Origin: a virus
Reading direction: 5' to 3' (one strand)
Length of the DNA: 24,558 bases
Virus record (IMG/VR): IMGVR_UViG_3300025098_000266
Coordinates: 1-24,558 of that record
Below are positions 14,629-21,455 of this stretch, piece after piece (the first letter of the stretch is position 1; every line of letters starts with the position of its first letter). The notes beneath the pieces are model-generated. The model made no database searches. It had not been told where the DNA came from and saw only the letters and a program-made list of their open reading frames with translations. The translations under genes were made by a program, and so were the position numbers.

Positions 14629-15939
14629 TTAAGCGAGATCATACCCAAATACATGGACTCGAAACTTCGTCGGCGCATCAGTGTCAACATCCATAATAGT
14701 AATCCTTAAAGTTAATTCCTGATTATTTTCAAGCCTGGTCCATTTTAATCTTTGCGCCCAGTAATATTCTTGCGACCTTTCTAAATACCCCTGAATAGTA
14801 TTTTCAGCAACAGCTACCGTTGGGTTGCTTCCAGACCTGCTATGTATAACTTCTATCCGATATTGGATGAATCCATCAATTTTAGTTGCGTTTTCGCCTT
14901 TGCCAGCTCTGCCATATAGCCCACCATCAATTTCAAATAACACGTCAAATTCGTCTTCGTATTTAACTTTAGTGTCAATATCGCCAAACTTTTGCGTGCT
15001 ATTTTCTTGAAGACTTCTGCTTAACCCAGGGCCAAAACCATCGCCTGAAGGGATGACTCTCCTGCGATTATTTATGCTTGTTTTGTATTGAAAAACGTCA
15101 CGCGAGTCAAGCCGTTTTGTCGCAATTCCAGACTCTTCATTAAACTCACGCTCCACCTCACTGCCATTAATCAATATGGTTTCCCGTCCTGGTGCTTTGA
15201 TTGCTGTTGCAATTGGGTCGGAAACATCTGTTGCTTCAATGCCTACTGACAACATGTGACCGCCAAGCATGGCGCGGCCATACACAACAGGAATTGTTGA
15301 ACCGTTGCCAACAGTATTGGCTGGTCCGGTGTACGCATAAGACTGCTGACCACTTGCCCCACGCGTTACACCTTGTGGGCCAGGGCCACGAAAACTTGTG
15401 CCATCCATACGACGACTGCCAAGTTTTGGCACTTCTGGTTGCGGTGAGATCATGTTTGCCACACCGCCAAGAATCAAACTTGCGCCAATTGCGCTTAAGC
15501 CTGTGCCAATGGCCGTGCCAATGGCACTACCGACCACGAGTGAAGACCCTGCCGCAAGAGTAGTTCCCGCAGCCACCGTGCCACCAAGGCCAGCAAAACC
15601 AAACAACCCCGCGCCAGGCAGCAAAAATGAAGCCGCGACCAAGCCAACACCAACCAAAATTGATGTCGTAGAACCACCTCCACTACCGCTGATCACCGGC
15701 ACAAGCATCATTGGCCTGCTGCCAAACGGTAAATGCAGTTCGTCATATCCCATCGCCGCACCAGACTGAATCAGCTTGTAGCCAACACCGTTTTGGTGCG
15801 CTGTCATCAAATCTTTCTGCAGCTTCGGATGATTGACACACAACAGCTTGATCGCGTCTGCTGGTGTCCTTAGGTTGTAATACTCGTGGTGTGTGCCGTA
15901 TTTTTCGCCCAGCTCACCGGCTAACATCACCAGTTGCAT
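14629..15939 (-). CDS. I: Tail assembly protein, lambda gpI-like
   Basis: 436 residues from ATG at 15939. An in-frame ATG at 15996 would add 19 residues, but the family's ubiquitin-like start (compare MQLVMLAGELGEKYG with the usual 'v.LyGeLgekFG') begins at the internal Met, and the longer form would overlap the NlpC/P60 gene by 83 nt rather than 26. Domains: N-terminal gpI domain (about 1-90, including RTPADAIKLLCVNHP), a Gly/Ala-rich hydrophobic region (about 92-175, probably membrane-active or disordered), then a beta-rich C-terminal part with STIPVVYGRAMLGGHMLSVG. In lambda, I acts with J, K and L to form the tail tip and is not known as an abundant virion component. Confidence 0.8.
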   Translation of the reverse strand: MQLVMLAGELGEKYGTHHEYYNLRTPADAIKLLCVNHPKLQKDLMTAHQNGVGYKLIQSGAAMGYDELHLPFGSRPMMLVPVISGSGGGSTTSILVGVGLVAASFLLPGAGLFGFAGLGGTVAAGTTLAAGSSLVVGSAIGTAIGTGLSAIGASLILGGVANMISPQPEVPKLGSRRMDGTSFRGPGPQGVTRGASGQQSYAYTGPANTVGNGSTIPVVYGRAMLGGHMLSVGIEATDVSDPIATAIKAPGRETILINGSEVEREFNEESGIATKRLDSRDVFQYKTSINNRRRVIPSGDGFGPGLSRSLQENSTQKFGDIDTKVKYEDEFDVLFEIDGGLYGRAGKGENATKIDGFIQYRIEVIHSRSGSNPTVAVAENTIQGYLERSQEYYWAQRLKWTRLENNQELTLRITIMDVDTDAPTKFRVHVFGYDLA

Positions 15940-16303
15940 AGCGATAGACGGCGGCAACGCTCTGCCTATAGTACCGCCCAAAAGGTTCCACCGCACTCAG
16001 GCTGTTGAACCGTTGGTGCAAGATCTTATCCGCACCAACATAAATTGCTGCGTGCATTGGCGTCCTAGTCATCAACCGCATAATCAATACATCACCAATC
16101 TTGCGTTCTGCCATATCAACCTCATAAAACCCATACGCCTCAGCCTGTTCTAAAAATATGCTGCTTGTCGTCTCAAGGTCTTCTGGTCTCTCAAAGTCTG
16201 GCAGCAACACCCCCATCAACCTGTAGTAATCGCAGATCAGCGTGAAGCAATCCTGCGCTCCATACGCAAACTCCTTGCCTGTCAGGGATCGATAGTTGAC
16301 CAT
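15914..16303 (-). CDS. K: Tail-tip NlpC/P60 cysteine peptidase (C-terminal half of lambda gpK)
   Basis: 129 residues, one NlpC/P60 domain. Visible catalytic elements: Cys19 in GAQDCFTLICDYY, His84 in TPMHAAIYVG, and His96 in ADKILHQRF as likely third polar residue; GDVLIMRL precedes the His motif as in lambda gpK. Family members cleave peptidoglycan stem peptides, and the tail protein is thought to help the tip through the cell wall or to process tail proteins. In lambda this domain is fused to a JAMM peptidase in one chain; here it is a separate gene whose ATG lies 22 nt inside the end of the JAMM gene in the -1 frame. Confidence 0.85.
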   Translation of the reverse strand: MVNYRSLTGKEFAYGAQDCFTLICDYYRLMGVLLPDFERPEDLETTSSIFLEQAEAYGFYEVDMAERKIGDVLIMRLMTRTPMHAAIYVGADKILHQRFNSLSAVEPFGRYYRQSVAAVYRYATGDVSR

Positions 16304-16623
16304 TCGCCGTCAGGGACAGAATAGATATGCCATACAAGCTTAGTTTGACTGCAGCTTTTGCGATCTGGCTCACTAGCTTGCCCGCCTAACGGGTGAGAAT
16401 GCACGACGGCTTCAATCGTTCCAGACAACATGGCCTCCATATAGTCAGTGGCGTTAAGGACAAAGGTCAGCTCTGGCTCGTCTGCAACGTTTTGGCACGG
16501 CCAATACTTGCCATCAACAAGTAAGCCACAAGCTTCTTTTGGATACTCAAGGATTGCGTGGCCTTCCGCCTTACGCTTGAACTCTTGATCCAAGGAATCC
16601 TCCAAACGGGATCGATACATCAT
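16282..16623 (-). CDS. Tail-tip JAMM/MPN metallopeptidase (N-terminal half of lambda gpK)
   Basis: 113 residues from ATG 16623. JAMM/MPN pattern: Glu in HAILEYPKEACGLLV (about 23-37), then HSHP and SEPD (about 76-86), giving the two zinc His and the Asp. The usual spacing H-x-H-x7-S-x2-D is one residue shorter here (x6). WHIYSVP at the end is also typical of phage gpK. A second possible start is TTG at 16593, preceded by a perfect GGAGG with a 5-nt spacer, which would give 103 residues and reduce the overlap with the gpL-like gene from 53 to 23 nt; the domain is intact from either start. Likely a tail-tip maturation peptidase. Confidence 0.85.
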   Translation of the reverse strand: MMYRSRLEDSLDQEFKRKAEGHAILEYPKEACGLLVDGKYWPCQNVADEPELTFVLNATDYMEAMLSGTIEAVVHSHPLGGQASEPDRKSCSQTKLVWHIYSVPDGEWSTIDP

Positions 16624-17386: not shown

Positions 17387-17727
17387 GGCTCAAATACTTG
17401 CACGAATGACGTGACAATCTCCGCTCGATCAATAAATGGAATCGTCTTCGTCCACTCTGTGCAAATGAATTTACTGCTAGTCGCTTCGCCAGGTGGAGTG
17501 TAGATAAAGGTTTCTACACCACCCCTTGCATCAAGGAAGTCTTCGATCGTGTCAGCTTCTGTTTCTGATACACGGAAGGTCAGGTTATAGACCTTTGGGT
17601 TTTGGTTGATGCCAAACGTTGCTCGCTGGCTATAACCACTCCCAAACTGGGAGATACGCACCTGTGGTGCGCTTTGCTTCGTCATCCCTGGTGCGGGATC
17701 AAAATCGGGAAAAGTTAAGGCACTCAT
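17383..17727 (-). CDS. M: Minor tail protein, lambda gpM-like
   Basis: 114 residues, equal to lambda M in size. Motifs: FGSGYSQRATFGINQNP in the first third, LTFRVSETEADTIEDFLDARGG in the middle, and FIYTPPGE, CTEWTKT and VTSFVQVFEP at the end, all matching the 'phage minor tail protein M' pattern. It joins the tail tip to the tube initiator. Its start overlaps the stop of the tape measure gene by one base (TAATG) and its stop overlaps the gpL start (ATGA), so the tail genes are translationally coupled here. Confidence 0.88.
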   Translation of the reverse strand: MSALTFPDFDPAPGMTKQSAPQVRISQFGSGYSQRATFGINQNPKVYNLTFRVSETEADTIEDFLDARGGVETFIYTPPGEATSSKFICTEWTKTIPFIDRAEIVTSFVQVFEP

Positions 17728-20075
17728 TAGCGGGACAATAAGCCTCCAGGTCGCTGTTGCTTGATCAATTCTGCCTGCACAGCCGCTCCAATCAACCCTC
17801 CGAGCTGTTTGCCAGCGCCACTGTCACCTGAAGCAGAACTGCCTTTGGCGTCAACGTTAACGACAACGCTTGTGCTGCCACCTCCGCCTCCACCAAGCTT
17901 GTTGTTTGGAACAATATTGCCAGAGGTGTTTGGAACGAATAGCTCAGGGCCTTTTTCGCCAACCATGTAAGGCGTACCACCCGAGACGGGACCGCCTGCG
18001 GCTCTCCCTCCGCCAAAGAACGATCCAAGGCCAGGAATACCGCCAAGTGCAGTATTGACTCCAAACTGCAGCAAGATATTTGCGACTTGCCTAAGCGTTT
18101 GTGATGCAACGTCAGCAAGTGATTTTGTGCCTTCAACTGCTGCGCTTAAAGCATCAACAATGCCGCTAGAAATACTTTGGCCGATTGACGCATACATGGA
18201 CTCTAAGTTCTCTAACGCTTTGACCTGTTCCTTAAGAGCGGCAGTGCCTTGCAAACTCTGTTCGACTTGCTCTCTCGTCAAGCCTTCATTTTCTTTCATT
18301 ATTTTATTAACTTTTTGCTCTAACTGTTCCTCTTCCAGTCTTCCGTCAAGCCTTGCCTGCAGTAAGTCCTGCTCACTTTGCAAGCCTTTTAATGTTTCTG
18401 CCGCTTTCTCTGCTTGTGCAGCCTTGCTGGCGTTGAGTTTGTCCTGAATGCTGAAAATTTCTCTATCAGCCGCCAATCCAGCTTTTTTAATTTCTTCTTC
18501 TTTTTCCAAAGGAGGTATCTTTTTAAGATTTATTTTCTCAATTGCTGTAGCTTGCTTCTCAAGAGCAATTTCCATATTCAATGCTGCTTCACGTACCGGA
18601 TTTTCTTCTTCTTTGGCCTTAACAACTTGTCTGCTTAGCACCGCTAAACGCTCCTGAAGAGCAACTTCAGCTTGCAGCTGTGGCAGTCTGCTTTCTCGTC
18701 CTTTCTTGGCGCGTCCGCCACTGACTGAAAAGTCTCTTCGATCCTGTGCAGTAACAGGAATTGATACCGGGCTAACAGGCTTAAATTCTTTTCTAATCTG
18801 CGCTAACGCATCTTCTTGACTTAAAAAGACTTGTCCTGCACTTCTTGCTTCCGCTCGCGCCTTAGATCCAGACCTACCTGTCCCTAAAGATTCACCAGTT
18901 AAAACTTTAAACCTAGACCTAGCAGCTCCTTCTTGAGAACCTAAATCTCCAAAAAATGCTTCTCTACTGCCAGCCCCCGCAACAGCGCCTAAAACTTGAT
19001 TTACAACTTTTAAAAAGGCTTCTAATGGTCCAGAAACTAGCGCAAATAATTGCGTCGTTAGCTGATTCCAGAGCTTTGTTGTTTCACTTGTAGTCTCACC
19101 TAGCTCTTGCAAAGAACGAACGCCTTCGTTGCCAATCAATTGGGTCAGTTCACCTGTCAACAACGCCGCTAGCTCTTCGACCCTGCCTTGCTCTTCAAGC
19201 TGGAATGCTCTCTCTTTTATCTGTTCACTGCTAAATAACGACTTTTCACGTACCAACTCCAACGCACCGCCGGTTGAGTTCAGGGCTTGGCCAACCTTTG
19301 CCGCTTCTTTTGCGAATGCTTCGACCTGTGCAGTAATTGCGCTAGCAGCGATCGATCCGCCTAAGCCACCTACCGCTCCACCGATGCCCCCTGCCAATGC
19401 TTGGAGCGGGCCACCTCCAAACAGCAACGGGAAGCCAGCGCCTGTAAGAATGTCTCTTCTCCTGGTCTCACTTCTTCTTGCAGCATCTCGCCTCCTGCTT
19501 CTTGCCGAGGCGATAGCTTCTTTATCTAAACGCTCTTGTTTTCTCTTTTCTTCTGTTATTTGTTTTTCATAGTATGTTCTTTTTTGTAATTCTGCCTCCA
19601 GAGTCCCTAGCTCTGTTGCAGGGCCAATAGCAAGACCTTCTGCTTGTCGCGCAGCCTGAAGCAGCCCTTGATATCTTTTCTGCAACTCTCCGGCCTTCCC
19701 TTCGGCCTTTGCAAACGCTGAGGCCAGTTCCTGAACTTCTGCATTTTGAGACTTTAAAAGAGTCTTTCCTGCTTCTAATTTGTCAATTTTAACGTTCGCA
19801 AGAATTTCGCTAAAAGCAGACGCTTGGCTTGATGCGCCAGCAAAAGTTGCTGAAATTCCGGCTATAGAATTATTTGCTAACTTCGCTTTCTTGATAACCT
19901 CCGTCATTGCGGTCCTGACCGCATCCGCCCCAGAACCAGAGCCTGGAGCAAGAAGATTGATTGGTTTTAATTGTTTAATTAAACTGTTAAGCCTGCCTAC
20001 GGTCGCAGCCGTTCTTTCAAGACTTTTCTGATTCTGGACGTTTACAACAATATTTGCGCTATACGAGGAAGTCAC
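17727..20075 (-). CDS. H: Tape measure protein (lambda gpH-like)
   Basis: 782 residues from a GTG start. Mostly alpha-helical and Ala/Glu/Lys/Gln-rich, with long coiled-coil stretches (about 100-210 and 440-640). A basic cluster (about 190-208, SRRRDAARRSETRRR) precedes a Gly/Ala-rich hydrophobic region (about 212-255, GFPLLFGGGPLQALAGGIGG), the likely membrane-penetrating segment. The C-terminus has the gpH-style motif PYMVGEKGPELFVP (about 702-715) in a Gly-rich context. Tape measure length sets tail length; at 0.15 nm per helical residue, 782 residues would span roughly 115 nm before any processing (an estimate). It starts 30 nt after the end of the frameshift ORF of the assembly chaperone. 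Confidence 0.92.
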   Translation of the reverse strand: MTSSYSANIVVNVQNQKSLERTAATVGRLNSLIKQLKPINLLAPGSGSGADAVRTAMTEVIKKAKLANNSIAGISATFAGASSQASAFSEILANVKIDKLEAGKTLLKSQNAEVQELASAFAKAEGKAGELQKRYQGLLQAARQAEGLAIGPATELGTLEAELQKRTYYEKQITEEKRKQERLDKEAIASARSRRRDAARRSETRRRDILTGAGFPLLFGGGPLQALAGGIGGAVGGLGGSIAASAITAQVEAFAKEAAKVGQALNSTGGALELVREKSLFSSEQIKERAFQLEEQGRVEELAALLTGELTQLIGNEGVRSLQELGETTSETTKLWNQLTTQLFALVSGPLEAFLKVVNQVLGAVAGAGSREAFFGDLGSQEGAARSRFKVLTGESLGTGRSGSKARAEARSAGQVFLSQEDALAQIRKEFKPVSPVSIPVTAQDRRDFSVSGGRAKKGRESRLPQLQAEVALQERLAVLSRQVVKAKEEENPVREAALNMEIALEKQATAIEKINLKKIPPLEKEEEIKKAGLAADREIFSIQDKLNASKAAQAEKAAETLKGLQSEQDLLQARLDGRLEEEQLEQKVNKIMKENEGLTREQVEQSLQGTAALKEQVKALENLESMYASIGQSISSGIVDALSAAVEGTKSLADVASQTLRQVANILLQFGVNTALGGIPGLGSFFGGGRAAGGPVSGGTPYMVGEKGPELFVPNTSGNIVPNNKLGGGGGGSTSVVVNVDAKGSSASGDSGAGKQLGGLIGAAVQAELIKQQRPGGLLSR

Positions 20076-20105: not shown

Positions 20106-20632
20106 CTACCTGCGCCTACGGGCCTTTGCTAATTCCTTCTCCTGCTCTTCGTTCAAAATTTTAAAATACGCGCTCCAACCCAAAACCTCTTCTGCTGTCA
20201 TCGTTGACCGTAGCTCCGACAAGCTCATGCCAAGCTCCTTGGCAATGCCAAACTGCAGCATGAGCCAGTTATCCTTCCGAAGCTCGGCTCCTAGGATTTT
20301 GGGTCGATTGCCTCTTCCTCTTCGTCGTCAGTCAAAATCGCCAGCATCAAAGACTGCAAATCCTTATCCTTCACCTCGTTCTTAAGCACATCAACTTCGC
20401 CAGCCAAGAACAAAGACTCCCCCACTTCATCCTTAGCTTTTGTAATTAAAAGCTGCAGAGCAAACGCATTGGCGTCATCCGATCCAGCACGTTTTTGAGC
20501 GCGTTCACGCTCTGCCATCGTCAATGGCGTAACCCACATCTCAAACTTGCTGTCGTCCGAAAGAGTAACGACTCTTTTTGTTGCTTCTAAATTTGCGGCT
20601 TTCTTGAGACGGTCAATGGCGCGTAATGCCAT
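20106..20632 (-). CDS. GT: Tail assembly chaperone, -1 frameshift fusion (lambda gpG-T-like)
   Basis: The upstream reading frame (20632-20291) carries C CCA AAA at 20303-20297, just before its TCC TAG end. A slip of -1 there enters an open frame of 63 codons that ends at TAG 20108-20106 and would give a fusion of 112 + 63 = 175 residues. The extension reads ILGAELRKDNWLMLQFGIAK then ELGMSLSELRSTMTAEEVLG, an aromatic helix (WSAYFKIL) and a charged end (EEQEKELAKARRRR), the pattern of lambda-type T domains. The position between tube and tape measure genes is the conserved one. In the family the T part recruits tube subunits while G coats the tape measure. Confidence 0.85.
20291..20632 (-). CDS. 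G: Tail assembly chaperone (lambda gpG-like)
   Basis: 113 residues when translation does not shift. Helical and charged: MALRAIDRLKKAANLEATKR, VTLSDDSKFEMWVTPLTMAER, QLLITKAKDE, then SLMLAILTDDEEEEAIDPKS. The acidic end before the stop and the slip site are typical of phage G proteins, which coat the tape measure before tube assembly and leave the finished tail. Located 82 nt after the stop of the tail tube gene, with a terminator between them, so its expression likely depends on read-through or a promoter in the short leader; none is obvious. No Shine-Dalgarno site. Confidence 0.88.
   Translation of the reverse strand: MALRAIDRLKKAANLEATKRVVTLSDDSKFEMWVTPLTMAERERAQKRAGSDDANAFALQLLITKAKDEVGESLFLAGEVDVLKNEVKDKDLQSLMLAILTDDEEEEAIDPKS
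20297..20303 (-). promoter_or_regulatory. Programmed -1 ribosomal frameshift heptamer (C CCA AAA)
   Basis: CCCAAAA sits in phase as X XXY YYZ in the chaperone frame, two codons before its stop. A 4-bp hairpin (CCGA-GCT-TCGG, 20287-20277) begins 9 nt downstream, and GAGCC (20290-20286) could instead pair with GGCTC (20266-20262) 6 nt downstream; both are short. The slip joins G to the T-like frame. Confidence 0.82.
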
Positions 20633-20714: not shown

Positions 20715-21455
20715 TTAGCTCTTAGCAAAGTCGAATGTAGGAGCTGCAGTTGGACGGAAGTTAATTGATACTGCCTGTGCGTCGTCAGGAGTAACTGAAT
20801 AACTCGCAGAAGTCAGCACCGCTTCCATTGAGATGGAACGGCTAGCTGCGTCATCTGGCGTACCAGCTGAAACAACTGCATCCATATACAGCTTGAACGT
20901 TGCACCAGCTTGGTTGCGCTGGGTAACGTCTTCAATCAAACGAGCCGAAATACCGGTGTCGTCATCAGTGAAGTAAACCTCAGCTGAACCCGTACCATCC
21001 GCAAAACCAGAGATGAAGGTTCGGAATGGTGCGGTTTGACCCAACGTGCCACCGATGCTTGTTACATCGATTTCTTCACGGGTTACTTCAAAATTCCAAG
21101 AACGGACGTTCGCTACTGACTGGAACTCGGTGTAATTAATCCCGAAGGCGCTGGTGCCGTCAGTTCCGTCGTCTGTCAAAGCAAGCTCACTACCGCCTGC
21201 AGTAGCAGCAAACGTGGCTACTCCGGTAGAAGCTGTGTAGGTCAGAACGAAGACTGGAGTTCCTTCAGCCAAACCGGCAGGGAGGGTGCCCCCGCCGGCA
21301 GTAAACGAAACTTTGTCGTTTACCTTGAAGTTGAGAAACGTTCCAACTTTGATGGAATTGCTAGCGTTGGTGACATCTGCAGCCTTAAAGGTTCCAGATG
21401 TGCCAGCTGGCTTGTAATAAAGGGCTCCAGAGGTGCCCGAAAGGACGGTAGCCAT
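20715..21455 (-). CDS. Major tail tube protein
   Basis: 246 residues, beta-rich and without membrane segments or signal peptide. N-terminal half contains an insert-like Gly/Thr-rich stretch (about 40-100, FTAGGGTLPAGLAEGTPVF and TASTGVATFAATAGG). The tube-protein core begins near VANVRSWNFEVTREEIDVTSIG (about 113-134) and includes FISGFADGTGSAEVYF, the conserved 'r.f..G..dgtgs..v.f' pattern, and ends with ISMEAVLTSASYSVTPDD. Position between terminator and chaperone genes is the standard one. It is followed by an intrinsic terminator. In the virion it stacks in hexameric rings around the tape measure. Confidence 0.88.
   Translation of the reverse strand: MATVLSGTSGALYYKPAGTSGTFKAADVTNASNSIKVGTFLNFKVNDKVSFTAGGGTLPAGLAEGTPVFVLTYTASTGVATFAATAGGSELALTDDGTDGTSAFGINYTEFQSVANVRSWNFEVTREEIDVTSIGGTLGQTAPFRTFISGFADGTGSAEVYFTDDDTGISARLIEDVTQRNQAGATFKLYMDAVVSAGTPDDAASRSISMEAVLTSASYSVTPDDAQAVSINFRPTAAPTFDFAKS

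Follow-up and report, generated by a model that had tools for sequence, protein, structure and literature searches.

We found that the window, the whole 24,558-base virus record analysed here, very probably encodes a lambda-type G/GT pair of tail assembly chaperones of a long-tailed phage, made through a -1 slip at C CCA AAA near the end of the gpG-like gene. The mechanism is a known one, and the locus is a well-supported new example of it in an ocean phage fragment; no near DNA match of the window to any phage record was found. At the level of sequence, the site, its frame, its conservation and the selection on the extension can be regarded as established.

The 3′ end of the gpG-like open reading frame reads GAC CCA AAA TCC TAG on the minus strand, corresponding to the C-terminus IDPKS and the stop. 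As the initial annotation had claimed, the heptamer is in phase at this gene end; it starts 10 nt before the gpG stop, within a frame overlap of 12 codons, counted from the previous stop of the -1 frame to the gpG stop. CCCAAAA occurs in phase at only 2 of 6721 positions across 19 open reading frames of the window. The -1 frame is open over the claimed 63 codons, beginning with ATC at 20297 and reading ILGAELRKDNWLMLQFGIAKELGMSLSELRSTMTAEEVLGWSAYFKILNEEQEKELAKARRRR, and the predicted fusion of gpG with this extension has 175 residues. The same annotation stated that the extension has no start of its own. We found no ATG, GTG or TTG in the -1 frame between its upstream stop and the slip, and the statement holds for the whole domain, but not for its interior, where Met codons exist.

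Table 1. Coordinates of the G-T locus, its candidate stimulators and the adjoining tail genes in the window
Feature	Position	Strand	Details
Major tail protein	20715..21455	-	directly upstream of gpG; phrog_1407 'major tail protein', E 8.4e-7
gpG-like tail assembly chaperone gene	20291..20632	-	ATG start, TAG stop 20293..20291, 113 aa
Candidate internal Shine-Dalgarno-like GAGG	20311..20314	-	7 nt upstream of heptamer; putative stimulator
Slippery heptamer C CCA AAA	20297..20303	-	in phase, X XXY YYZ
-1 frame T-like extension	20106..20297	-	63 codons (20297..20109) and TAG 20108..20106
Candidate downstream RNA hairpin	20223..20265	-	8-bp outer and 5-bp inner stem; putative stimulator
Tape measure protein	17727..20075	-	next gene downstream; 782 aa, GTG start at 20075; phrog_1538 'tail length tape measure protein', E 2.2e-12

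We assembled 250 distinct G-T loci from five viral-collection scans, the first of which gave 80 loci, together with one genome scan and annotated phages. The T frame relative to gpG is -1 in 160 of them, +1 in 87 and 0 in three; the three frame-0 loci were considered as natural fusions and rejected, as they look like indels or truncations. C CCA AAA (80) or C CCA AAG (4) is found 10 nt before the gpG stop at 84 distinct -1 loci, and C CCA AAG is found 52 nt before the stop at three S-2L-like loci (S-2L and two relatives), bringing the arrangement to 87 distinct loci altogether. The only genome-collection match is a homologous G-T pair (L332:4998-5515), whose contig had been assigned to a gammaproteobacterial MAG; its overlap contains C CCC AAG, not a clear heptamer, and the contig could be a mis-binned phage.

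The extension evolves as a protein. In a set of 68 distinct extensions, the T frame has a pN/pS of 0.18 and no stops, whereas the remaining frames have pN/pS values of 1.4 and 3.2 and contain 5.0 and 2.4 stops per sequence. These statistics are unlike those of non-coding DNA, in agreement with the initial reading of the -1 frame as expressed, and they indicate strong purifying selection that is also present before the first internal ATG: T codons 4-11, from the gpG stop to that ATG, have a pN/pS of 0.03 in frame and of 4.8 and 1.8 out of frame. For gpG the value is 0.14; a one-codon indel in its acidic tail distorts the ratio in one alignment, and the value from another was used.

Codons 4-11 bear directly on the alternative that the extension region encodes a small protein of its own, translated without any frameshift from the internal ATG at residue 13, which has AAGGA about 10 nt before it. 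This ATG is present in 83 of 84 relatives, and the S-H1 record contains a separate CDS annotated over the extension region. However, an independent start there is unlikely because the codons upstream of it are conserved as protein; moreover, Met is absent from this position in other clades, and such a start leaves the fixed slip heptamer without a reason. We therefore consider a separate small protein to be highly improbable.

The codons at the slip are nearly invariant. In the 84 distinct relatives, which are kin to each other, so that these counts are not numbers of independent events, Asp is encoded by GAC in 84/84, Pro by CCA in 84/84 and Lys by AAA in 80 and AAG in four. Elsewhere in the same gpG genes, CCA accounts for 49 of 138 Pro codons (CCG 34, CCT 29 and CCC 26), and synonymous sites away from the slip are widely changed (pS ~0.6). 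The position of the gpG stop is kept as TAA, TAG or TGA. Tandem tRNA re-pairing accounts for the fixed third positions of CCA AAR better than does transcriptional slippage, by which the longer product would arise on the C3A4 run and not on the ribosome. A short homopolymer run is indeed present, but polymerase slippage typically needs much longer ones, and this origin has a still smaller chance of being correct.

Least probable of all, to the point of being negligible, is a sequencing or assembly indel that splits one true fused gene into two frames: the arrangements of L019, L072 and L292 (scan class frame 0) do look indel-like or truncated, but the same -1 arrangement recurs on more than 80 distinct contigs, the cultured phages KBS-S-2A, S-H1, P-HS2 and S-2L share it with slip sites of other kinds, and the gpG stop stays in place. 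Given the metagenome relatives, chance or assembly error appears untenable as the origin of the arrangement. No cultured relative was found to have C CCA AAA itself; the slip sites of the nearest cultured phages are A AAA AAC, A AAG or C CCA AAG.

We identified both halves of the predicted fusion by profile and structure comparisons. The extension matches phrog_337 'tail protein' (E 9.7e-6), as do 42 of 43 of its homologues, and lambda gpT matches the same family (E 4.7e-7), which supports the proposal that the extension is T-domain-like. When the extension is aligned to lambda gpT by hhalign, the first ~38 residues of both are paired (P 6.8e-4, probability 27%), with the segment DNWLMLQFGIAKELGMS-LSELRSTMTAEEVLGWSAYFK placed against the start of lambda gpT. 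The AlphaFold model of the extension is a confident helical domain (pLDDT 92). The upstream half matches phrog_20784 (E 4.9e-33), and phrog_344 'tail assembly chaperone' is matched by 20 of 34 gpG homologues and, weakly, by lambda gpG itself (E 0.049); a direct hhalign comparison of the two gpG proteins is below significance (E 0.46). The top three PDB matches of the gpG model (pLDDT 78) are 2ob9_B and 2ob9_A, the HK97 chaperone, and 3klu (YqbN), and the modelled domain appears to have the tail assembly chaperone fold. In the RcRhea tail assembly chaperone (160 aa), one polypeptide gives matches to the T model and to the gpG model alike. Pfam searches with either half gave no usable match.

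The chaperone pair sits between the major tail protein and tape measure genes, and the gene order from the major tail protein through J is that of lambda, V-G-T-H-M-L-K-I-J. Lambda K corresponds here to two open reading frames, both phrog_30 (window 15914-16623, minus strand). They share 22 nt and stand in a -1 relation; an ATG of its own opens the second frame, and the shared stretch contains no X XXY YYZ heptamer.

According to the proposed frameshift mechanism, the majority of ribosomes would terminate at the TAG at 20293 and produce gpG, while a minority would slip back by one base as the standard tandem-slip model describes, with tRNA-Pro moving from CCA to CCC in the P site and tRNA-Lys from AAA to AAA in the A site. 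The slipped ribosomes would continue in the -1 frame through the 63-residue helical T domain and produce a gpGT of 175 aa. Judging from the protein families, gpG would coat the tape measure protein and the T part of gpGT would recruit the major tail protein, so that a low slip frequency would set the gpG:gpGT ratio needed in tail assembly. The site differs from the GGGAAAG of lambda, as first described, but it is no unusual one: among the heptamers surveyed systematically in E. coli, C_CCA_AAG slipped most (54% when combined with the IS3 pseudoknot), motifs of the form Y_YYA_AAR were noted as shifty, and AAR codons in the A site were highly so (PMC4066793).

Two elements are candidates for stimulating the slip. 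The first is the GAGG upstream of the heptamer. The Glu codon at position -7 is GAG in 82 of 84 relatives, compared to 516 of 945 Glu codons elsewhere in gpG, and the G that follows it is missing in a few relatives. The second is a hairpin that starts about 31 nt downstream of the heptamer, where the usual spacer to a downstream stimulator is 5-8 nt (PMC4066793). Its region has the only clear folding signal within G-T (mean z of -2.5 against dinucleotide shuffles and -1.8 against synonymous randomisation), with 95% of cells paired, weak covariation and imperfect conservation. In an alignment from the heptamer onward, RNAalifold found no pairs compensated on both sides, and we therefore claim no proximal stimulator.

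Across the wider set of relatives, both the slip site and the direction of the shift vary. The -1 sites are C CCA AAA/G, A AAA AAC (in KBS-S-2A and S-H1) and A AAG GAA, and the +1 site is AAA A. NNA AAG GAA is fixed in 70 of 70 distinct Prochlorococcus-phage relatives (L004 and 69 further relatives of P-HS2), whose Lys codons are mostly AAA (395 versus 164); no X XXY YYZ heptamer was found in the overlap of the P-HS2 relatives, and the site matches the 'threetwotwo' motif hypothesised by PRFect (PMC10885494). At the +1 loci, AAA is followed by AGC, AGT or AGA, and a T-frame stop lies directly before it, a TGA or TAA in two distant clades (L003, L249-L328, L081 and L090-L099). By hand inspection, we rejected a -2 shift at these loci, since it would require AAA to pair anew with TGA or TAA.

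The +1 state appears at three places in the window's own gpG clade (L051, the L081 group and L117), on a gpG tree of ~100 columns with modest support. In L051 (822-1400), gpG is 88-92% identical to window-type DNA over most of the gene and is then joined by another T domain in the +1 frame. The foreign T is followed by 39 nt that match the 3′ terminus of the window's T exactly, which we read as the scar of a T cassette replacement that also switched the direction of the shift. A 1200-nt stretch of L051 recurs unchanged in L052, another metagenome contig. We think it probable that T is an exchangeable cassette with its own slip site and that evolution keeps the fused product but leaves the direction of the shift free. 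Neighbouring phages with near-identical gpG would then reach T differently, one by -1 and the other by +1 (at AAA A, with AGC following), and several chemically different slip sites would serve one protein family. Frameshift direction can vary between phages in general (PMC5009743); a switch inside one close family would be the more interesting part.

With this locus, the G/GT recoding family gains an abundant group of marine and freshwater phages. In the isolate records examined, the T extension is either unannotated or, in S-H1, a separate small open reading frame; therefore, annotation misses the extension. The relatives form a natural series, with several sites, two directions and one product, for questions about slippage on cyanobacterial ribosomes, such as at which sites it occurs and how tightly the ratio needs to be controlled. 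The searchable literature yielded no description of this frameshift for these cyanophages, and the word 'frameshift' is absent from the cyanosiphovirus papers checked. C CCA AAA may already be listed among known tail sites because subscription papers, for example Xu 2004, lie outside the scope of that search.

Among the closest known counterparts is lambda, where a -1 slip at GGGAAAG produces gpGT alongside gpG and where their ratio and roles have been described (PMC5009743). Both systems have a small upstream chaperone, a -1 slip near the end of G and a T part that is reached by the slip and belongs to the phrog_337 family. In contrast to lambda with its G GGA AAG, the heptamer is C CCA AAA, the gpG stop comes only 10 nt after the start of the heptamer, the T extension has 63 aa compared to 144 aa in lambda T, and gpG has no detectable sequence similarity to lambda gpG. 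Of the solved structures, the HK97 chaperone (PDB 2ob9) comes closest in fold to the gpG model (TM 0.52-0.56), at a sequence identity of 12-15% and a Foldseek E of only 2e-3. Among cultured phages, cyanophage KBS-S-2A (HQ634187) has gpG and T that are ~60% identical to those of the window, in a -1 relation and at the same place in the tail operon; it differs in its slip site, A AAA AAC, and its T extension is unannotated in the record. The Prochlorococcus phages MED4-184 and P-HS2 also have homologous gpG and T in a -1 relation, but with the site NNA AAG GAA in place of X XXY YYZ. Because Synechococcus and Prochlorococcus are the hosts of the nearest cultured relatives, this phage, too, is likely to infect a cyanobacterium.
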